Of a DNA stretch of 64,000 nucleotides, positions 1,618 through 23,275 are shown one piece after another. The notes beneath the pieces are model-generated. The model was not told the origin of the DNA. It made no database searches and was given only the letters and a program-made list of their open reading frames with translations. Source of the stretch: an uncultured Alphaproteobacteria bacterium (GTDB lineage: Bacteria > Pseudomonadota > Alphaproteobacteria > Methylaequorales > Methylaequoraceae); NCBI GenBank assembly GCA_902522465.1, contig CABYVV010000001.1:26060-90059 (forward strand), read 5' to 3'. The stretch's first letter is position 1. Each line of letters opens with the position of its first letter. Position numbers and translations under genes: made by a program.

Positions 1618-3165
1618 CTAACTTAGTCTTTCTTCCAGTAAATTTATTGTTTTTTCTATTCCATAAAATTTTATAAAAGAACCAAGTCTAGGGCCTTGAT
1701 CTTGTCCGAGAACAACTTGATAAAAAGCTGAAAACCAGTCCCTAAGGTTTTCAAATTTCAAATCCATTCCAATTTGATATATTTTTGTTTGAATATCTTC
1801 GGGTTGGCAATTCTCATCAATTTTTTTTAATTCTTCTATTATCTTTCTAAATCCAGTAATTTCAATTTCATTTGGCTTCCTATATTTTTTATTTGGTAAA
1901 ACAAATTCATTATAATATTGTACGCCATAATTGAGTAATTCATGAATCAATGGGAAATCTATTCTCTTTATATCTTTGTAATAATTCTCTATAAAACCCC
2001 AAAGAATTTCAGGTGATTCAGCGTTACAAACATTGGCAAGGTTAAGTATCATGTTGAATGAAAAATTTTCTAGAAATTTATAATTATCAGTCTTATTAAT
2101 AAACCATACTGGATTTTGATATTTTTCTTCACTATTTTGCATTTCATAATCTTTTCGGAGTTTTAAATAATCATCTGTCATTTTGGGTATTACATCAAAA
2201 TACAATCTCTTTGCTCTGCTAGGGTTTTGAAACATAAATAATTCCAAGCTTTCTTGAGGTGAAAATTTCAGCCAATCTTCAACTGAAATTCCATTGCCGA
2301 TCGATTTAGATATTTTTTCTCCATTTTCATCCAAAAATAACTCATAAGTAAAATTATTTGGTGGTTTACCTCCTAAAACTCTATTAATCTTACTCGAAAG
2401 AACAAAAGATTCGATTAAATCCTTACCATTCATTTCATAATCTATGTTTAGGACATTCCATCTCATTGCCCAATCAACTTTCCATTGTAACTTACATTCT
2501 CCATTGAAAATTGATGATGATTCAGTTTTGTTAGTAAATGGATTGTGAAATTCTATTTTTTTTTTTTGTGTGTCTAATTTATCTATTTTTACCTGTAGAA
2601 CTTTTCCTGTTGTCTTACATATTGGAAGAAATGGAGAGTAAGTTTGTCTTCTTTCGTTTCCTAAAGTGGGTAAAATAATATTTAAAACTTTTTCGTAGTT
2701 ATCAAAAATTGCTTCTAAACCTGAATTAAACTTTCCATTTTTGTAATGATCAGTTGATGATTTAAATTCAAATTCAAAATTAAAATGTTCCAAGAAGTCT
2801 TTCAACTTCATGTTATTATGTTCAGCAAAGCTTGAATATTTCTCAAAAGGGTCAGGTATCGATGATAATGGTTTTTCTAAATGTTTACCTATGATTGTTT
2901 GATTAGGAATATTTAGTGGCACTTTTCTTAATCCATCCATGTCATCAGAAAAAACAAATAGTTTTGTAGGAATATCTGATAGTTGTTTAAAAGCCTTAAT
3001 TACCATTGAAGTTCTTAAAACTTCACCGAAGGTACCTATATGTGGTAAACCAGATGGACCATATCCTGTTTGAAAAATACATTCTTTTTTTTTGTTTTCA
3101 TCAATTCTTTTTATTAACTTTTTTGCTTCTAAAAAAGGCCATAATTTTGAATTAATTTCATTCAT
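1618..3165 (-). CDS. lysK: Class I lysyl-tRNA synthetase
   Basis: TGYGPSGLPHIGTFGEV (HIGH-like) and KISKSIGNG (KMSKS-like); 515 aa. Confidence 0.93.
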   Translation of the reverse strand: MNEINSKLWPFLEAKKLIKRIDENKKKECIFQTGYGPSGLPHIGTFGEVLRTSMVIKAFKQLSDIPTKLFVFSDDMDGLRKVPLNIPNQTIIGKHLEKPLSSIPDPFEKYSSFAEHNNMKLKDFLEHFNFEFEFKSSTDHYKNGKFNSGLEAIFDNYEKVLNIILPTLGNERRQTYSPFLPICKTTGKVLQVKIDKLDTQKKKIEFHNPFTNKTESSSIFNGECKLQWKVDWAMRWNVLNIDYEMNGKDLIESFVLSSKINRVLGGKPPNNFTYELFLDENGEKISKSIGNGISVEDWLKFSPQESLELFMFQNPSRAKRLYFDVIPKMTDDYLKLRKDYEMQNSEEKYQNPVWFINKTDNYKFLENFSFNMILNLANVCNAESPEILWGFIENYYKDIKRIDFPLIHELLNYGVQYYNEFVLPNKKYRKPNEIEITGFRKIIEELKKIDENCQPEDIQTKIYQIGMDLKFENLRDWFSAFYQVVLGQDQGPRLGSFIKFYGIEKTINLLEERLS

Positions 3166-3215
3166 AATTAACTATAAAATATTCAGTTCAAAACTATTAT
3201 CAAGTATAAAAAAAT

Positions 3216-3236
3216 AATAATATACACAATATTATT
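3216..3236. promoter_or_regulatory. Palindromic AT-rich element between lysK and the cysI operon
   Basis: AATAATAT-ACACA-ATATTATT in the divergent intergenic region; could be chance in AT-rich DNA. Confidence 0.25.
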
Positions 3237-3294
3237 GTATAAAATAATATTAACCATTTTTTTATTGTAATATTCTTTCAGTATTCTTTTTTTT

Positions 3295-3588
3295 ATGATA
3301 AATATTGCAAATATGGCAAAAAAACTTGAGGGACATACATTTTTACTTTCAGCAAATGACCTGAAAACTGGAAAAGTTTTGTTTTATACATCTAACGGAT
3401 GGCTTCCTGAGTTGAATAAAGCAATAAAAATTGAAAAAAAATCCATCGAAAAGTATGAAAAATTACTAAAAATTGATGAAGAAAATTGTCTTATAGTTTC
3501 AGGAAGATTTGTTGAATTAAATGATTCAGGGTCTATTAAAAACCTGAGAGATAAAATAAGAAGTTCTGGGTTAACCTTTAAAATTTGA
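3295..3588 (+). CDS. DUF2849 domain protein (cysI-linked)
   Basis: 97 aa, KLEGHTFLLSANDLKTGKVLFYTSNGW; immediately upstream of cysI. Start may instead be the internal Met at 3313. Confidence 0.75.
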   Translation: MINIANMAKKLEGHTFLLSANDLKTGKVLFYTSNGWLPELNKAIKIEKKSIEKYEKLLKIDEENCLIVSGRFVELNDSGSIKNLRDKIRSSGLTFKI

Positions 3589-3594
3589 TTAATT

Positions 3595-5235
3595 ATGTAT
3601 AAATATTCTGAAATTGATAAAAAGATAGTTGCAAATAGAGTAAAGCAATTTAAGAATCAGGTGGATAGAAGACTATCCGGAAAACTCACAGAAGATGAAT
3701 TCAAACCTTTACGATTAATGAATGGTCTGTATCTTCAACTCCATGCTTACATGTTGAGAGTGGCAATACCATATGGAGAGTTATCTTCAAAACAGTTAAG
3801 ACAGTTGGCATTCATTGCAGATAAATATGACAGAGGATATGGACATTTCACAACCAGACAAAACATACAATTTAACTGGCCAAAATTACCCGATGTTCCT
3901 GAAATTCTTGAAGAACTTTCAAAAGTAGAAATGCATGCAATTCAAACATCTGGAAATTGTATAAGAAATATATCAGCGGATCACTTAGCTGGACTAACCA
4001 TTGAAGAGATAGAAGATCCAAGGCCATGGTGTGAAATTATAAGAAAATGGTCAACATTCCACCCTGAGTTTTCTTTTCTACCGAGAAAATTTAAGATAGC
4101 TGTAACTGGGTGTTCTGAAGATAGAGCTGCAATTTTAGTCCATGATATAGGCTTGAGATTAATAAAAGACAAGGGAGATATTGGCTTTGAGGTTTTTGTC
4201 GGGGGTGGCCAAGGAAGAAGTCCATATATAGCAAAAAAAATAAAAAACTTTTTACCAAAGAAGGATTTACTTAACTATCTTGAGGCGATTTTAACAACTT
4301 ACAATCAACTTGGGAGAAGAGATAATATTTATAAAGCTCGTATTAAAATTTTATTAAATGAATTAGGAATAGAAAAATTTAAGGAATTTGTCGAAGAAAA
4401 TTTTAAAAGATTCTCAAACAAAAAACTAATTCTTGATAAGTCGACAATTAAAAATATATTTAAGTTTTTTAAACTTCCTAGTCTAAAGCCTGGTTTAGAA
4501 AAAGTACCTGAAATTAAAAACTCATTATTTCTAGAATGGAAGAATCAAAACGTACTTCCTCATAAACACCCTAATTATTCAATAATTTTAGTTTCTCTTA
4601 AATCAAATGAAAAACCTCCAGGAGACGCTTCCAGTATACAAATGAGAAAATTAGCAGATATAGCAGACAAATATTCCTTTGGCGAGATTAGAGTAACTCA
4701 TGAACAAAATTTAGTCTTACCTCATGTTGAAAATTCAAGAGTATATGAAATTTGGAATGAACTTTTAAATATAAATTTAGCAACTCCAAATATAGGTCTA
4801 ATTACGGACACTATTTGCTGCCCAGGAATGGATTATTGTGCTCTAGCAACTGCTAGATCTATTCCCATTTCACAAAAAATTACAGATCATTTCAAAAATT
4901 ATTCTCATCAAAAAGAAATAGGTGATTTAAAAATAAAAATATCTGGCTGTATTAATGCCTGCGGTCATCATCATGTTGGCAACATAGGTATTTTAGGGCT
5001 TGATAGAAAAGGAAAAGAGTTTTATCAAATTACATTAGGAGGCTCAGCTAAAGAAAATGCTTCCATTGGCCAAATAGTTGGGCCGTCATTCTCAGAAAAA
5101 GATTTAATGGGTGCAATAGAAAAAATAATCAAAGTTTATAAAAAAAATAAAATTTATGAAAAAGAAGATTTCCTTTCTGTATTTAAAAGAATTGGAATTA
5201 AAAAATTCAAAGAGAAATTATATGATAATAATTGA
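3595..5235 (+). CDS. cysI: Nitrite/sulfite reductase hemoprotein (assimilatory sulfite reductase)
   Basis: TRQNIQFNWPKL, TSGNCIRNISADH, CCPGMDYCALATARS, KISGCINACGHHHVGNIG siroheme/4Fe-4S motifs. Confidence 0.93.
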   Translation: MYKYSEIDKKIVANRVKQFKNQVDRRLSGKLTEDEFKPLRLMNGLYLQLHAYMLRVAIPYGELSSKQLRQLAFIADKYDRGYGHFTTRQNIQFNWPKLPDVPEILEELSKVEMHAIQTSGNCIRNISADHLAGLTIEEIEDPRPWCEIIRKWSTFHPEFSFLPRKFKIAVTGCSEDRAAILVHDIGLRLIKDKGDIGFEVFVGGGQGRSPYIAKKIKNFLPKKDLLNYLEAILTTYNQLGRRDNIYKARIKILLNELGIEKFKEFVEENFKRFSNKKLILDKSTIKNIFKFFKLPSLKPGLEKVPEIKNSLFLEWKNQNVLPHKHPNYSIILVSLKSNEKPPGDASSIQMRKLADIADKYSFGEIRVTHEQNLVLPHVENSRVYEIWNELLNINLATPNIGLITDTICCPGMDYCALATARSIPISQKITDHFKNYSHQKEIGDLKIKISGCINACGHHHVGNIGILGLDRKGKEFYQITLGGSAKENASIGQIVGPSFSEKDLMGAIEKIIKVYKKNKIYEKEDFLSVFKRIGIKKFKEKLYDNN

Positions 5236-13386: not shown

Positions 13387-14571
13387 TTGGAATTTTTAAT
13401 TTACATTTCTTATATTTCTTTCATCTCTTGGTTTTATATATCACTGATACATGGAAGATCATTCTCAAGTGGTAAAGGTCTGTTTTGGAAAAATGAAATT
13501 GTTTTCGAAGAAAAAATTAATTTCAATAAACCATCAATCTATACCGATTCGATTTGTGTAATGATACCAGCAAGAAACGAAGAAAAAACAATCCTAAAGA
13601 CTCTAAACTCAATCAAGAATCAAAGTTATAAGAATCTTCAAGTTGTAGTAATTGATGACAACAGTTCAGATAAAACTAGAAAAATAGTAAATAAATTTAA
13701 AAAAAATTTTAAAAATTTAAAACTTTTAAAAGGTAAGCAATTACCCTCAGGATGGGTTGGCAAAAACTGGGCATTAAAACAAGCAGTAGATCAGGCAAAT
13801 AAGAAGTTTTTCAATTATTATTTATTTGTCGATTCTGATATTACGTTTTCAAAAAATTTATTGAAAAAAGTAATTCATTTTTCAAAATCAGAAAATTTTT
13901 TAATGATTTCTTTAATGGCAAAACTTAATTGTAGTTCATTTTGGGAAAAAATGCTTATTCCATCTTTTATTTTTTTTTTTCAAAAACTTTATCCATTTAA
14001 TTACGTAAACAATAAAAAAAAAAACTTTGCGGCTGCGGCGGGTGGTTTTATTTTCTGTAAAGCATCAGAGTTTAAAAAGGAAAACTTATACAACAAAATT
14101 AGAAATAAAGTAATCGATGACTGTAACCTCGCAAAGCTATTAAAAAAAAATGGACCAATTTGGTTAGGTCTTACTAATCAACTTAAAAGCGGACGTAGTT
14201 ATAAAAATCTTAAGAGCATATGGAACATGGTTTCTAGGACAGCATTTGAGCAATTAAATCATTCTTTAATTTTATTATTTATTTGTATCTTAGGACTTAT
14301 CATTGTTTATCTTTTCCCATTGACTGTCATGTTAATTATTTTGTTATTTTTTCAATTGGATCTACAATACCTACATTTATTTGTAATTAATTTTTCTTCG
14401 TTTATTTTAATGGTTAGGATTATTCTGCCTACGCTAAATTTTTATGGAGTAAATAAACATTTTGCTATAGCAATTCCAATTACTGCAATTTTATATATTT
14501 GTATGACAATAACATCTGCTGTAAATTACACGTTTTTCTCTGGAAACACTTGGAAAGGGAGGAAGTATTAA
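13387..14571 (+). CDS. hpnB: Hopanoid-associated glycosyltransferase HpnB
   Basis: MIPARNEEKTILKTLNSIKNQSYKNLQVVVIDDNSSD..LPSGWVGKNWALKQA; family 2 GT; TTG start; first gene of the hpn cluster. Confidence 0.85.
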   Translation: MEFLIYISYISFISWFYISLIHGRSFSSGKGLFWKNEIVFEEKINFNKPSIYTDSICVMIPARNEEKTILKTLNSIKNQSYKNLQVVVIDDNSSDKTRKIVNKFKKNFKNLKLLKGKQLPSGWVGKNWALKQAVDQANKKFFNYYLFVDSDITFSKNLLKKVIHFSKSENFLMISLMAKLNCSSFWEKMLIPSFIFFFQKLYPFNYVNNKKKNFAAAAGGFIFCKASEFKKENLYNKIRNKVIDDCNLAKLLKKNGPIWLGLTNQLKSGRSYKNLKSIWNMVSRTAFEQLNHSLILLFICILGLIIVYLFPLTVMLIILLFFQLDLQYLHLFVINFSSFILMVRIILPTLNFYGVNKHFAIAIPITAILYICMTITSAVNYTFFSGNTWKGRKY

Positions 14572-15432
14572 AAAAATAAATGAAGAATATATTCACTCTC
14601 TGCTATCTGGAAAAAGTTTTCAAGATGAAAATTTTCCAGTTGCATCTTTTATGATCAAGAAAAAGTTAAAAGAATTTATTAGACAGTTTTATCTCTTTGC
14701 AAGAACATCCGATGACATTGCGGACAATGAAAAACTTGGACCAAAAGAAAAAGTTAAAATTCTAAGTTATTTTGATAAATGCTTAAAAGATGAAAAAAAA
14801 ACAGATATTTCTGTTCTAAACAAACTTATAATAACCTTTTCTTACCATAAATTTACACAGGTATATTCGAGACAACTTTTAGTAGCATTCAAGTTAGATG
14901 CTAAAAAGAAAAGATATAAAAATTGGGCAGAACTTATGAATTATTGCAAATATTCAGCAAATCCAGTTGGCAGATTTTTTATTGACCTCGCATATCACGA
15001 GAAAAAAAAAAAATTAATAATAAAAATATTATTTTTGAAGGATCTGATAATCTTTGCACTGCTTTACAAATTATAAATCATCTCCAGGACTGTCAAAAAG
15101 ATTATATATATCTCGACAGAGTTTATTTGCCAATGTCCTATTTCGATAAGCATTCAATAAAAGTTGATATATTAAAGAGAAGAAAAAATAACAGCAAGTT
15201 CAATGACTTAAAAAAATTAGTAATTGATAAAGTAGAAAAATTACTAGAAGATTCAAAAAAAGGAATTGATTTAATAGAAGTAGGTAGATTAAAGAAAGAA
15301 ACATTAATTATTTTAAATATTGCTAAAAGATTATGTTTTCTGCTAAAAGAGAATAACCCCTTAGAAAAAAAAATAAAATTATCACGTATTGATTTGATTT
15401 TTTGTTTTATTAAAGGAATAATGGATGATTAG
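14567..15432 (+). CDS. hpnC: Squalene synthase HpnC (hydroxysqualene-forming step family), interrupted by a frameshift at an A12 tract (15002-15013)
   Basis: Frame 2: DENFPVASFMIKKKLKEFIRQFYLFARTSDDIADN..NPVGRFFIDLAYHE; frame 1: FEGSDNLCTALQIINHLQDCQKDYIYLDRVYLPMSYFDKH; the two halves join only after a -1 shift or one extra A. No ATG upstream of the conserved ENFPVAS. Confidence 0.85.
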
Positions 15433-15466: not shown

Positions 15467-17389
15467 ATGAAGACCCAAACCAACCTACTAGATAAAGTTA
15501 AGTATCCAAAAGATCTAAAAAACTTCTCTGACAAACAACTCAAGTTACTCTGCAAAGAACTGAGGAATGAAGTTGTTGATGCTGTTTCAGTAACTGGCGG
15601 ACATCTAGGAGCAGGACTAGGTGTAGTTGAATTAACAGTTGCAATCCATAGTGTTTTTAACACTCCAAAAGATAAGTTGATTTGGGATGTAGGACATCAA
15701 TGTTATCCGCATAAAGTGATTACAGGAAGAAGGGATAAAATTAGAACAATTCGACAACCAGGAGGTCTTTATGGTTTTACCAAAAGATCAGAAAGTGAAT
15801 ATGATCCATTTGGTGCCGCACATTCCTCTACATCAATTTCCGCTGGACTTGGAATGGCAGTTGCGAGAGACTTAAAGAAAGAAAATCACAATGTAGTCTG
15901 CGTAATTGGAGATGGGGCTATTAGTGCCGGAATGGCATACGAAGCAATGAACAATGCCGGTTCAATGAACGCAAGACTTATTGTAATTTTGAATGATAAT
16001 GATATGTCAATCGCTCCACCCGTCGGTGCAATGAGTGCTTACTTATCCAGATTATTATCAACAAAGACATTTCAATCAGCTAGAACATTAGCCAAACACA
16101 TGGCAAAGAAATTTCCCAAAAGTTTTCAAAATATGGCTGCAAAAGCAGATGAATACGTTCGAGGAATGGTTACAGGTGGAACATTATTTGAAGAACTTGG
16201 ATTTTTTTATTTAGGTCCAATTGATGGTCACAACCTTGACCATCTTCTTCCAGTGCTCAGAAATTTAGAAAAGTCTGAATGGGATGGTCCTGTATTCCTG
16301 CATGTAGTTACAAAAAAAGGTTATGGCTATGAACCCGCTGAGAAATCAGAAGATAAATACCACGGTGTAAGTAAATTTAATGTTGTAACTGGGGAACAAG
16401 TAAAATCATCATCAACAATACCGAGCTACACAAAAGTGTTTGCAAATGCTTTAATTAAACAAGCTAAAAAAGACAAAAATATAGTTGCAATTACCGCGGC
16501 TATGCCATCTGGCACAGGGTTAGATATTTTTCAAAAAGCATATCCCTCAAGAACGTTTGATGTAGGGATTGCTGAACAACATGCTGTTACTTTTGCTGCG
16601 GGACTTGCTTCCAGAGGAATGAAACCTTATGCAGCTATTTATTCAACTTTTCTTCAAAGAGCATATGATCAAGTTGTACACGATGTAGCCATTCAGTCTC
16701 TTCCAGTTAGGTTTGCAATAGACAGAGCAGGACAGGTTGGCGCAGACGGAGCAACACACGCAGGTTCATTTGATTTAGCGTATCTCTGTACACTACCTAA
16801 TTTTATAGTCATGGCCCCTAGTGATGAAAATGAATTGTGTAACAGCATTGCAACCTCAACGATCATTAATGATAAACCATGTGCTTTCAGATATCCACGC
16901 GGTGAAGGATTAGGAGTTAAAATTAACGACCAACCAGAAATTTGGAAAATTGGTAAAGGTAAAATCATAAGTGAAGGGAGTAAAATTTGCATCCTATCAC
17001 TTGGCACTAGGTTAAAGGATTCAATAATGGCCTCTGAAGTTCTAGCATCTTATGGGCTTCCAACAACTGTAGCAGATGCAAGGTTTGCTAAACCTATAGA
17101 TCAACTTCTTATTACCCAACTAGCAAGAGATCATGAAGTTATGTTGACAGTTGAAGAAGGTTCTATAGGAGGGTTTTCTGCCCAAGTAATGTCATTTCTT
17201 GCTAAGTCAGGCGCACTAGACAAGGGTCTGAAATTTAGGCCAATATTTTTTCCAGATGTTTTCATTAATCATGGAAAACCAGATCAACAGAATATCGAGT
17301 GTGGTGTTGACGTTGACAATATAATAAAGACAGCTATGGGTGCTCTGGGCATTGCTCATCCAAGAAAATTTTCTCTCGAAAGAGCATAA
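15467..17389 (+). CDS. dxs: 1-deoxy-D-xylulose-5-phosphate synthase
   Basis: [57 protein letters not shown]; 640 aa. Confidence 0.97.
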
Positions 17390-17406: not shown

Positions 17407-18243
17407 ATGTCAGTCGATGATCAAATCGCAGTCAAAGAAATAGTAAAAAAATCAGGATCCTCTTTTTTCTGGGGAATGAATGTATTAGATTCAAAAAAAA
17501 AAAGGGCTATGTTTTCAATTTATGCCTTTTGTAGAATAGTTGATGATATTGCTGATGAACTTGATAATAGAAGGGAAAAAGAGTCGAAATTAAAGAAATG
17601 GAAAAAGAGAATTCAACACATCTATGAATCAGTAGATTTGAATAATAGTATTGATAGGGAACTTAAATTTGCAATTGATAACTTTATGCTTGAAAAGTCA
17701 GATTTTTATTCGATTATTGACGGAATGATGATGGACGCAAGGCAAGATATAAAATTTCCATCAAAAAAAATTCTTAATCTTTATCTTGATAGAGTGGCTG
17801 TAGCTGTTGGATACTTATCTATTAGGGTGTTTGGACTTTCAGATAATGAAAAGGATTATGCTCTGTTTCTTGGCAGAGCTTTCCAGTTAACTAATATTGT
17901 AAGAGATTTTAGCGAGGATTTAAAAAGAGGAAGATGTTACATTTCATCTGATCTTTTTAAGAAACATGAAATTGAACAAAACATCAAAACAATAAGTAAT
18001 GATCCGAAAATGCAAAATGTATTTCAGGAGATGCTTTTTGAGGCAAATCAATATTTTATAAAATCAGATTTAGAAAAGAAAAAGATAAAAAAAACAAAAA
18101 TTATTGCTTCAGAGGTAATGAAAATATTTTACAAAGCCATACACTCCAAATTATTTAAGAAAAGAATTAATTTAAATAAAAAAATAAGATTAAACTCATT
18201 TGAAAAGATTGTCATACTCTTATTATTTTTCGTGAGGTATTAG
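17407..18243 (+). CDS. hpnD: Presqualene diphosphate synthase HpnD
   Basis: SSFFWGMNVLDSKKKRAMFSIYAFCRIVDDIADE..GRAFQLTNIVRDFSEDLKRGRCYI. Confidence 0.92.
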   Translation: MSVDDQIAVKEIVKKSGSSFFWGMNVLDSKKKRAMFSIYAFCRIVDDIADELDNRREKESKLKKWKKRIQHIYESVDLNNSIDRELKFAIDNFMLEKSDFYSIIDGMMMDARQDIKFPSKKILNLYLDRVAVAVGYLSIRVFGLSDNEKDYALFLGRAFQLTNIVRDFSEDLKRGRCYISSDLFKKHEIEQNIKTISNDPKMQNVFQEMLFEANQYFIKSDLEKKKIKKTKIIASEVMKIFYKAIHSKLFKKRINLNKKIRLNSFEKIVILLLFFVRY

Positions 18244-18244
18244 C

Positions 18245-19480
18245 ATTAAAAAAAAAATTTATATAATTGGCGCAGGACTTTCCGGATTGTCAGCATCTGT
18301 TCATGGAACAAAAAAAAATAAAAATGTAACATTATTTGAATCATCGAATATCGCTGGTGGAAGATGTAGGTCATTCTTTGAAAAAAAATTAAACATAGAA
18401 ATCGATAATGGTAATCATCTGGTTTTTTCTGCTAACGAAAATTTTTATGAGCTTTGTAAAATTATTAGCTCCACTGATAAGATCGTGACTCTTCCTCCGA
18501 AACTTGATTTCTTTGACTCAGATAAGAATTTGACTTGGTGTCTTGATTTAAAAGAAATAAAAATCTTAAAGTTTATACTCGGAAAAATTAATTTGATTCC
18601 TGATACTAATATTTTCGATTATACTTCACTATTAAAATTCTTATTTGTTTCTCAGAGAAAAACCGTTTTGGAATTAGTTGAAAATTCTAAAATCTATAAA
18701 ACCTTCTGGGAACCCTTAACACTCGGAGTTATGAACACTTCAAGTAGCCTAGCATCAGCCAAAGTTTTATCAAATGTCTTAAAAAAAACAATATTTAAAG
18801 GTCACAAGTTTTGTAATATTTATCAACCATCAAAAAACTGGAATGATACGGTAATCAATCCTTGTATTTCTTTTTTAAAAAGAAAGGGGACAAAAATTAA
18901 TTTTAAACAGAGATTAAAGAGTTTAGAAATTGAGAATAATATTGTTAAAAAATTGTATTTTGAGAGCCAAAATATCGAATTAGATGAAAATGATAAATTA
19001 GTATTAGCCATTCCTCCTTCAAATTTATCTAGATTATTTCCGAATTTAAAACTCCCAACAAAATACAATAGTATTCTGAATATCCATTATAAAACTCCTG
19101 CGAAGTTAAAAAAAAAATTTACAAAAAATATCATTGGTTTCATAAACTCTTTATCTCAATGGATATTTATTAAAAAAGAATACCTCTCTGTGACCGTTAG
19201 TAATGCAAATCATTTTAATAATCTTGAATCTGACAAAATTGCAGAGATTGTTTGGAAAGAAATTTGTCGTTATCTAAATATAAATTTACCAATAACTAAA
19301 TACCAAGTTGTTAAGGAAAAAAAAGCTACAATAATTCAATCCCCAGAAAATTTTAAATTGATAAGCCAAATAAATAATTTACCAAAAAATTTAAGAATTT
19401 CTGGGGATTGGACACAAATTAATTTACCTTGTACAATTGAAGGATCGATTTTATCAGGTAAAAAAGCGGTTAACGATTAA
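18245..19480 (+). CDS. hpnE: Hydroxysqualene dehydroxylase/desaturase HpnE
   Basis: KKKIYIIGAGLSGLSASVHGTKKNKNVTLFESSNIAGGRCRSF (FAD Rossmann motif) begins upstream of the listed ORF start. Only ATT codons (18239/18245) are available, with GAGG 7 nt upstream of 18245. Confidence 0.88.
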   Translation: MKKKIYIIGAGLSGLSASVHGTKKNKNVTLFESSNIAGGRCRSFFEKKLNIEIDNGNHLVFSANENFYELCKIISSTDKIVTLPPKLDFFDSDKNLTWCLDLKEIKILKFILGKINLIPDTNIFDYTSLLKFLFVSQRKTVLELVENSKIYKTFWEPLTLGVMNTSSSLASAKVLSNVLKKTIFKGHKFCNIYQPSKNWNDTVINPCISFLKRKGTKINFKQRLKSLEIENNIVKKLYFESQNIELDENDKLVLAIPPSNLSRLFPNLKLPTKYNSILNIHYKTPAKLKKKFTKNIIGFINSLSQWIFIKKEYLSVTVSNANHFNNLESDKIAEIVWKEICRYLNINLPITKYQVVKEKKATIIQSPENFKLISQINNLPKNLRISGDWTQINLPCTIEGSILSGKKAVND

Positions 19481-19493
19481 ACTTTCTATAACT

Positions 19494-21404
19494 ATGCATA
19501 CTCTTAAAAGATTAATACAACAAAATACTAAAAGATTTGAAAGACTACTGAAGAACCAGGCATCAAAAAAATTAAAAGAAGGTTGTTATGTTTATGAACT
19601 AGAGGCAGATACTACCATCCCCTCAGAATATATATTGATGACACATTTTTTTGGTATCATCAATCTTAGTCTGCAAAGCAAAATGGTAAAATATATTTTG
19701 AAAAGACAAAATAAAGATGGAGGTTGGCCACTTTTTTTTGATGGAGAATCAGACATAAGTGCATCAATAAAAGCGTATTATGCTCTTAAGCTATCAGGTG
19801 AAAGTGAGAACTTAAAACATATGAAACGAGCGAAAAGTTTTATTTTGAAAGTAGGGGGTATTGAGAAAGCTAATGTTTTTACAAAAATATCACTTGCTCT
19901 TTTTGGTCAAATCTCTTGGAATTCATTACCTTTTATGCCAATTGAAATTATTAAATTTCCGTATTGGTTTCCTTTCAATATATATAAGATCTCTTACTGG
20001 TCTAGAACTGTATTAGTACCTCTTCTAATAATAATGAATCGAAAACCTCTAGCATCAAATCCAAATAAAATTTCTATAGATGAACTATTTATTAACCCAA
20101 AAAATAAGTTCAATAAAATAAAATTACTGAGTGAAAAAAACTTTTTTTCCAAATTTTTTTTGTTTCTAGATAGTTTTGCAAGAATTTTTTTTCCTATAGT
20201 ACCTAAAAAATTTAAAAATTATTGTGAACTTACAGCAATTAATTGGATAATAAAAAGGCTTAATGGTGAAGATGGTCTCGGTGGAATTTTCCCTGCAATG
20301 GTCAATTCTTTAATTGCTCTTCATACAATTAATAAAAAAAAATACGAAAAACAAATTGAGATTGCAAGAAAAGCTATTGATAGGCTTGTTGTAAAAAAAA
20401 AGGATTTTGCTTACTGTCAACCCTGTTTTTCACCAGTTTGGGACTCAGGATGGATGGGTTTGGTTCATTTGGAAAATGAACAAGATGTTGAAAGTCTAGT
20501 TAAATGGTTCCTTAAAAAAGAAATTAAAACCAATGGAGATTGGTCTTATAATAAAAAAAAAAAAACTCCAGGAGGATGGGCATTTCAATTCAATAATGAA
20601 TTTTACCCCGATGTTGACGACACAGCACTCGTCGGAATGTTTTTAGATAGGTATAATAGAAAAAAGAAGAGTAAGTCAGTTACTAGTTCTATTGAAAGAA
20701 CTAGAAAATGGATTTTATCGATGCAGTCTGACAATGGCGGATGGGGGGCATTTGATATAAATAATACATATTATTATCTTAACTCAATACCATTTGCAGA
20801 CCATGGAGCTCTTTTAGATCCTCCAACGGCTGATGTATCTGCGAGGTGTTTAAGTTTTTTGAAACAACTAAATAACCCAAATGATAAAGTATCTATAAAT
20901 AAAGCAATAAAATATCTTCTTTCTGAACAAGAAAAAGACGGCAGTTGGTATGGAAGATGGGGTACAAATTATATTTATGGAACTTGGTCAGTCTTATCTG
21001 CACTAAATATTGTTGATTTTAAAGAAAAGAAAGAAGTTTTTGAGAAGGCAAAAAATTATTTAAAAAAAATGCAAAGGAAAGATGGTGGATGGGGTGAGGA
21101 TGGAAAATCTTATTATAAGGGTCATGAAAATGCTGTAAAGATAAGCACTCCTTCTCAAACAGCTTGGGCTTTAATGGGTCTTTTAGCTGCTGGAGAAATT
21201 GGTAGCTTAGAAGTAGAGAATGGATTAAGGTATCTTACCAATAAAAATTTGAAATTTAGTGAAGATTCATACACCGCAGTGGGATTTCCAAAAGTATTTT
21301 ATTTGAAATATCACGGTTATGCTGAATATTTTCCTTTACTTGCAATTTCAAAAATTAAGAATCAATTAAAAAAGAATTCAATTTTTCCTAATTATGGAAC
21401 ATAA
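19494..21404 (+). CDS. shc: Squalene-hopene cyclase
   Basis: Repeated QxxDGxWGW-type motifs, catalytic DVDDTALVGMFLDR, SDNGGWGAFD, DGSWYGRWGTNYIYGTWS. Confidence 0.96.
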   Translation: MHTLKRLIQQNTKRFERLLKNQASKKLKEGCYVYELEADTTIPSEYILMTHFFGIINLSLQSKMVKYILKRQNKDGGWPLFFDGESDISASIKAYYALKLSGESENLKHMKRAKSFILKVGGIEKANVFTKISLALFGQISWNSLPFMPIEIIKFPYWFPFNIYKISYWSRTVLVPLLIIMNRKPLASNPNKISIDELFINPKNKFNKIKLLSEKNFFSKFFLFLDSFARIFFPIVPKKFKNYCELTAINWIIKRLNGEDGLGGIFPAMVNSLIALHTINKKKYEKQIEIARKAIDRLVVKKKDFAYCQPCFSPVWDSGWMGLVHLENEQDVESLVKWFLKKEIKTNGDWSYNKKKKTPGGWAFQFNNEFYPDVDDTALVGMFLDRYNRKKKSKSVTSSIERTRKWILSMQSDNGGWGAFDINNTYYYLNSIPFADHGALLDPPTADVSARCLSFLKQLNNPNDKVSINKAIKYLLSEQEKDGSWYGRWGTNYIYGTWSVLSALNIVDFKEKKEVFEKAKNYLKKMQRKDGGWGEDGKSYYKGHENAVKISTPSQTAWALMGLLAAGEIGSLEVENGLRYLTNKNLKFSEDSYTAVGFPKVFYLKYHGYAEYFPLLAISKIKNQLKKNSIFPNYGT

Positions 21405-22065
21405 AAAAAAATTCAAAAAGGTAGGTTTTATTTTTGGTCTGAAGCGAGAGATGAAGTTATTTTCTAATTTGAATAAAAAAAATTATTGTGTTTATGGCTA
21501 TGGTAAATCTTCAAAGGAAGCAACAAGAAAACTTTTAAAGCTTGGCGTAGACCTTGTTATAAATTTCGGGTTTGTTGCGTCTATTTCTAAAAAACTAAAA
21601 AACGGTGATATTGTTATCATTGATAAAATTTTTAATGAGAAAAAAGAAAAGCTTTCAACCTTAAAATTTGATATAGATTTGCTTAAAAATTTTAAAAATA
21701 ACTTCAATTTTGTAAAATGCAATTTACTTACTGTTCAGAAAATTGTGATGAGAAAAAAAGATAAATTGAATCTTACAAAAGAATTTAAATCAGTCTCTGT
21801 GATTGATATGGAGGCTTTCTACATAAAAAAAGAGTTGTCAAAATTTAATGTCCCAATGATTTCTTTTAAAGTAATATTTGATGATCTTGCTTTTGATATT
21901 CCCTCTTATATTTTAGATTGTATTAATGAAAAAGGTGAAATCAGAATTGCAAGCTTCCTGATTAAGTTGATTGTAAATCCTAAGAGAGTATTTGATCTTT
22001 TAGATTTGAGCAAAAGATTTTCTGCAAGTGAGAGGATTCTCAAGGGTGTAATCAATGCTTTATAG
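21394..22065 (+). CDS. hpnG: Hopanoid-associated phosphorylase/nucleosidase HpnG
   Basis: Position after shc; GVDLVINFGFVASISKKLKNGDIVIIDKI; VIDMEAFYIKKELSKFNVPMISFKVIFDD. Confidence 0.8.
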   Translation: MEHKKKFKKVGFIFGLKREMKLFSNLNKKNYCVYGYGKSSKEATRKLLKLGVDLVINFGFVASISKKLKNGDIVIIDKIFNEKKEKLSTLKFDIDLLKNFKNNFNFVKCNLLTVQKIVMRKKDKLNLTKEFKSVSVIDMEAFYIKKELSKFNVPMISFKVIFDDLAFDIPSYILDCINEKGEIRIASFLIKLIVNPKRVFDLLDLSKRFSASERILKGVINAL

Positions 22066-22075
22066 ATAGAATACG

Positions 22076-23275
22076 TTATTTAATTTTTTTAGCTAAATCA
22101 CTTTGAGGGTTTATCGCTGCTCCAGCAGATGGGATAGGCGAATCGTTACTTTCATTTTGTTTTTCAGCATGCAGCTTTTTCATCATTTCACTTACATGAG
22201 TGTCGTGGAAGAAGTCTGGATCTCTTGATTTACTTATGTCAATCTCTTCTGCCATTGCTCCCTCTGTCTTTGGACCTTTTAAGGCAACGGATACGGCCTT
22301 AAGCGGATTGGTGAAAACGTCAGTAACTGCTGAGGCTTCATACCCACAATGTGCCATACAATCTGAACACTTATCATAGTTTCCAGTACCATATTTATCC
22401 CACTCAGTATCATTCATCAGTTCTTTAAATGATTTTACATAACCCTCTCCAAGGAGATAACAAGGCTTTTGCCATCCAAATATATTTCTTGTGGGGTTTC
22501 CCCATGGGGTACACTTGTACATTTGATTCCCAGCAAGAAAATCAAGATAAAGACCTGAATGACTAAAATCCCATTTTTTAAAATCCTTAGATTTAAAAAC
22601 ATTTCTAAAAAAATTTTTGGTGTTAGATCTTTTTATGAAATGTTCCTGATCTGGTGCCCTCTCATAAGCAAAACCAGGAGAAATGGTTATACCATCTACT
22701 TTTAGCTCATCAGTCACATAATTAAGGAATTCCTTTAAACCATCCTCGTGAGCATTATCAAAAATTGTACAGTTTACATTACACCTAAATCCCAGCGATT
22801 TCGCCTTTTTTATGGCTGAAACACATCTGTCGAATACCCCCTCTTGACAAACGGCTTTGTCGTGTTCTTCTTTCATACCATCTAAGTGAACTGACCATGT
22901 GAAATATGGACTAGGTTTGTAATCGGATAATTTTTTTTCCATTAAAACTGCATTTGTGCATAGATATACGAATTTCTTTCTTTTAATAAGCTCTCTTACA
23001 ATTTCTGGCATTTCTTTGTGTATTAATGGTTCACCACCCGGAATAGAAACAATAGGAGCGCCGCATTCCTCTACAGAATCTATGCACTCCTGGGTAGATA
23101 ATCTTTGATTTAGGATCTCCTTCGGATAATCAATTTTACCACATCCAGCACAAGCCAGGTTACATCTAAAGAGTGGTTCCAGCATTAAAACAAGAGGGTA
23201 TTTTTTTCTCCCCAGTACCTTCTGTTTTAAAATATAAGATCCTACTCTTATTTGTTGTATTAAAGGAATTCCCAT
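22076..23275 (-). CDS. hpnH: Radical SAM adenosyl-hopene transferase HpnH
   Basis: LMLEPLFRCNLACAGCGKIDYP (CxxxCxxC), GGEPLIHKEM, C-terminal CSDCMAHCGYEASAV. Confidence 0.95.
   Translation of the reverse strand: MGIPLIQQIRVGSYILKQKVLGRKKYPLVLMLEPLFRCNLACAGCGKIDYPKEILNQRLSTQECIDSVEECGAPIVSIPGGEPLIHKEMPEIVRELIKRKKFVYLCTNAVLMEKKLSDYKPSPYFTWSVHLDGMKEEHDKAVCQEGVFDRCVSAIKKAKSLGFRCNVNCTIFDNAHEDGLKEFLNYVTDELKVDGITISPGFAYERAPDQEHFIKRSNTKNFFRNVFKSKDFKKWDFSHSGLYLDFLAGNQMYKCTPWGNPTRNIFGWQKPCYLLGEGYVKSFKELMNDTEWDKYGTGNYDKCSDCMAHCGYEASAVTDVFTNPLKAVSVALKGPKTEGAMAEEIDISKSRDPDFFHDTHVSEMMKKLHAEKQNESNDSPIPSAGAAINPQSDLAKKIK

Follow-up and report, generated by a model that had tools for sequence, protein, structure and literature searches.

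A hopanoid biosynthesis gene split at a poly-A tract in a marine alphaproteobacterium, probably through technical loss of one adenine

Within the window, i.e., the whole stretch of 64,000 nucleotides that was analysed, genes for hopanoid synthesis lie in the order hpnB-hpnC-dxs-hpnD-hpnE-shc-hpnG on the forward strand and are followed by hpnH and ispH (LytB) on the other strand. The cluster opens with hpnB (13387-14571), which encodes the hopanoid-associated glycosyltransferase (TIGR03469, E 1.2e-106), and continues beyond hpnC with dxs (15467-17389; TIGR00204, E 5e-244), hpnD for presqualene diphosphate synthase (17407-18243; TIGR03465, E 6.5e-66), hpnE (18239-19480; TIGR03467, E 3.7e-67), shc for squalene-hopene cyclase (19437-21404; TIGR01507, E 1.7e-209), hpnG (21394-22065; TIGR03468, E 2e-24) and, in the opposite orientation, hpnH for adenosyl-hopene transferase (22076-23275; TIGR03470, E 1.7e-165). 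These neighbours are all open and matched by their family models, hpnE being intact as well, which bears out an earlier sequence-only reading of this DNA in which every hpn gene other than hpnC had seemed undamaged. The hpnC gene itself, which serves the making of squalene, a precursor of membrane lipids, is found in the hopanoid-gene neighbourhood expected of an HpnC. The nearest relatives with names are AG-series single-cell assemblies, AG-892-F10 (G007), AG-337-K15 (G006) and AG-349-G20 (G011). The first of these (Methylaequor ceniphilum) is a published single-cell genome of the order TMED127/Methylaequorales and the genus GCA-2691245, which comprises small-genome ocean methylotrophs in which the hopanoid cluster adjoins a methylotrophy island (PMC12542740). 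In five genus members (G003, G004, G005, G010 and G012) hpnC, shc and hpnH are jointly missing; dxs, which lies inside the cluster, is missing from the same five, as an indication only, since no positive control was run alongside this search. Four of these genomes also lack ispH, and in the fifth (G004) the ispH match ends at residue 279 of 322. Loss of hopanoid synthesis in the genus was considered as a context for decay of hpnC and rejected, since dxs (five genomes) and ispH (four) are missing too, and the region is probably absent from these drafts because it was poorly recovered or left unassembled, not because the pathway was lost.

The hpnC gene is divided over two reading frames at a run of exactly 12 A (15002-15013). 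Its first half (14567-15001, frame 2) carries the sequence from DDIADN to GRFFIDLAYHE in a frame that is open from position 14525, passes through the tract and reaches a stop at 15074-15076, so that a ribosome that does not slip would read an out-of-frame tail (15014-15076) and make a product of 169 amino acids counted from 14567. The continuation, INNKNIIFEGSDNLCTALQ followed by LQDCQKDY, stands in the -1 frame (15013-15432, frame 1), and this second half, which includes INNKNIIFEGSDNLCTALQIINHLQDCQKDY, holds the rest of the HpnC protein. The halves match consecutive parts of the 267-position model of the squalene synthase HpnC, TIGR03464, positions 4-134 (E 4.5e-38) and 138-266 (E 3.4e-22), and likewise of PF00494, positions 4-136 and 145-261. 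Each half scores under the curated TIGR03464 cut-off of 250 bits, as does the intact ortholog of AG-892-F10 with 209.5 bits. Both Asp-rich motifs of HpnC are present in different frames, DDIAD in the first half and QDCQKD (from 15088) in the second. The sequence-only reading, which had described a split at this tract with one motif on either side of it, was right in both respects, and its arithmetic, by which the frames can be joined by a 13th A or by two fewer, is correct. The in-frame starts of the second half, TTG at 15127 and ATG at 15133, both lie downstream of its Asp motif, and separately translated halves could therefore not both carry one. No second intact hpnC was found in the assembly, which is 86.8% complete; apart from hpnC, PF00494 is matched there only by hpnD and by a crtB-like gene on contig 8. 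On this point, too, the earlier expectation holds. Judged by the relatives, in which the whole protein with 86-88% identity lies in one frame, the split is not a product of chance.

The beginning of hpnC is also unusual. Its probable start is an ATT at 14567, preceded by a GGGAGG-like site, and the sequence ATTAA (14567-14571) overlaps the TAA stop of hpnB (14569-14571). This arrangement is found in the same place in all eight genus members with hpnC, the window and seven others. There is no ATG, GTG or TTG in frame before the conserved ENFPV motif of hpnC in the window or in three of the others (G001, G008 and G009), and in the remaining four a TTG or GTG occurs 30 nt upstream, inside hpnB, with a further TTG in G002. 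This suggests that hpnC has a conserved AUU start that is coupled to hpnB, although the hpnB stop overlaps the ATT and so confounds its conservation. Similarly, no usual start precedes the GAGLSG of hpnE (18236-18300) in the window or in G002, G014, G021 and G025; the candidate start in the window is an ATT at 18239 or 18245, and several sisters have a TTG. In one further relative (G017; locus L021, around 1480-1505) the ATG is out of frame with hpnC and an A10 run lies between them, which reflects either an ATT or CTG start or another one-base problem in a tract.

AG-892-F10 and its sister single-cell genomes carry the same hpnC gene, with 86-88% protein identity to the window, and AG-892-F10 and AG-337-K15 also share its flanking genes, a porin-like gene and hpnH, within about 11 kb. 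Unlike in the window, HpnC is encoded in one frame in all three named relatives, although the AG-349-G20 copy is cut by a contig end. The sequence-only reading had proposed that the length of the A tract be compared across related genomes, and this comparison is informative. The stretch reads GAG-A13-TTAATAAT in AG-892-F10 and AG-349-G20 and GAGAG-A11-TTAATAAT in AG-337-K15 (GA11, 13 nt), and is thus 13 nt long in three sister species and one base shorter in the window. The segment from NPVGR to LCTALQ measures 75 or 78 nt, a multiple of three, in 13 of the 13 relatives measured and 77 nt in the window, and the ancestral frame was therefore intact and the window is without one base. No hpnC with internal stops was seen in the other matching genomes, neither among 60 relatives of mixed kinship nor in a subsequent search of 32 family genomes, and a scan of viral contigs for the hpnC locus gave no match.

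These data bear directly on programmed -1 ribosomal frameshifting, by which HpnC would be made or regulated at an A-AAA-AAA sequence in a dnaX-like manner. The slippery heptamer pointed out in the sequence-only reading does lie in frame within the A12 tract, but it cannot be given the weight of a -1 signal since A-AAA-AAA occurs in frame in 1,246 copies, in 444 of 565 genes. The frame offset is conserved in none of the 13 relatives, RNA downstream of the tract folds no better than shuffled sequences (z +1.09 for 80 nt, +0.82 for 120 nt) and no Shine-Dalgarno-like stimulator lies in the 20 nt upstream. As one A was lost from an ancestral stretch of 13 nt, a conserved programmed shift is excluded, and the probability left to this mechanism is practically negligible. 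Of the options listed earlier, this leaves technical error and recent mutation.

Both halves of hpnC are constrained. Nei-Gojobori dN/dS values of the window against AG-337-K15 and AG-892-F10 are 0.33 and 0.35 for the first half and 0.22 and 0.29 for the second, and none of the 47 columns that are invariant in 21 relatives is changed in the window. Codons changed specifically in this lineage, small counts throughout, number 11 nonsynonymous and 4 synonymous in the first half and 5 and 4 in the second. By dN/dS and invariant columns there is thus no sign of a decaying pseudogene, such as further lesions or relaxed constraint. Since the second half is not relaxed, either the deletion has a technical origin or it is very recent or rescued. 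The last two are combined in the idea that this cell or strain truly lost one base, in which case a replication slip on A13 truncated HpnC to 169 amino acids and RNA polymerase slippage re-adds an A in some transcripts, yielding some full-length protein. Long A runs readily mutate, the frequency of transcriptional insertions grows exponentially with the length of an A/T run, and the correction needed, one additional A, is in the favoured direction, single-A insertions being the dominant type (PMC5574713). At such runs in Buchnera and Blochmannia, 12-50% of transcripts of frameshifted genes are corrected (reviewed in PMC5009743), and the absence of secondary decay in hpnC agrees with such a rescue, which is possible by analogy with these genes if A12 is real. 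However, genome-wide RNA data from Buchnera contain zero cases of frame restoration (PMC5574713), the remaining hopanoid genes in the window are intact, and the deletion is absent from every relative searched, so that hpnC does not display a frameshift common to other species as some slippage-rescued genes do. Moreover, a cell caught at random should rarely carry a null allele in a conserved pathway. A real recent deletion with slippage rescue is therefore a serious alternative, yet an unlikely one.

How often such lesions occur in this genome was assessed in several ways. Among 212 AG-892-F10 proteins placed on the 244-kb contig of the window, hpnC is the sole one that is split, and in the reverse comparison of the window contig with AG-892-F10 none of 204 proteins is. 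When 644 kb of the genome were scanned for homopolymers at which the frame switches, hpnC likewise emerged as the only clear intragenic split, the other candidates being gene-gene junctions as judged by inspection of their translations. On contig 1, a second frameshift candidate (2929-3998) was rejected as an antisense match before a ubiG-like gene. The same 644 kb contain 86 A/T runs of at least 11 nt inside open reading frames of at least 150 amino acids, 38 of them of at least 12 nt. The genome is neither tolerant of many such frameshifts nor riddled with errors; Blochmannia vafer tolerates them in eight genes (PMC3017870). A proportion of about one broken run in 86 fits a rare technical error and a rare mutation alike, and this rate does not discriminate between the two. 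The abundance of long runs also bears on phase variation, in which the A run would be a contingency locus that turns hopanoid synthesis on (A13) or off (A12) between cells. A single-base difference does toggle the frame, and sister species retain 11-13 A at this place. Nevertheless, long A runs belong to the general background of this genome, and the one in hpnC is interrupted by a G in AG-337-K15 and is not retained in the majority of more distantly related species, which makes phase variation extremely unlikely. The broader proposition that A12 is real and that, in a streamlined methylotroph living free in the ocean, such long A runs turn hopanoid synthesis on and off or adjust its level, through either slippage rescue or phase variation, is very unlikely as well.

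The most probable explanation is that one A was lost from an A13 stretch, most likely technically, and that the gene is ordinary in the living cell. Under this explanation, hpnC would be an ordinary gene of a hopanoid-making marine alphaproteobacterium of the same genus as AG-892-F10, and the assembled copy would be short of one A in a lysine stretch of 13 A. The base would most likely have disappeared during whole-genome amplification, library PCR, sequencing or assembly, and in the living cell hpnC would be read in one frame without the need for any shift. We infer that the cause of the loss is technical and that the window comes from a single-cell assembly like those of its relatives. Two considerations favour this reading: the sister assemblies come from single cells, for which an indel rate has been benchmarked, and one sampled cell would seldom be expected to carry a null allele in a conserved pathway. 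The remark in the sequence-only reading that a lost HpnC would be odd was sound and is part of the reason for this preference. The GORG single-cell genome workflow is reported to produce about 3.0 indels per 100 kb (PMC11247762; PMC9771814), which predicts about 7 indels for the 244-kb contig, on which one frameshift was found. The assembly thus looks cleaner than the published rate, which counts against a technical cause, as does the fact that a real recent mutation from A13 to A12 would leave an identical sequence.

In all, the idea of recoding in hpnC is not supported, and the case illustrates that a single-base gap in an AT-rich draft genome can mimic recoding. The question is largely settled by the tract lengths of the relatives, and a false call of a broken hopanoid pathway is removed for the source organism. 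If A12 were true, slippage-tolerant genes would occur not only in insect endosymbionts but also in a free-living bacterium of the ocean.

Two known phenomena resemble the hpnC split. The poly-A genes of Buchnera and Blochmannia that are rescued by transcriptional slippage are similar in their AT-rich genomes, in the single-base indel in a long A run and in the otherwise conserved gene. Some of those frameshifts are, however, common to populations or species and backed by RNA (PMC3017870), whereas that of hpnC occurs in one genome and is known from DNA alone. The second likeness is to the homopolymer indel errors of single-cell and draft assemblies: the hpnC of one draft genome has lost a single base of a 13-base run and bears no other lesion.
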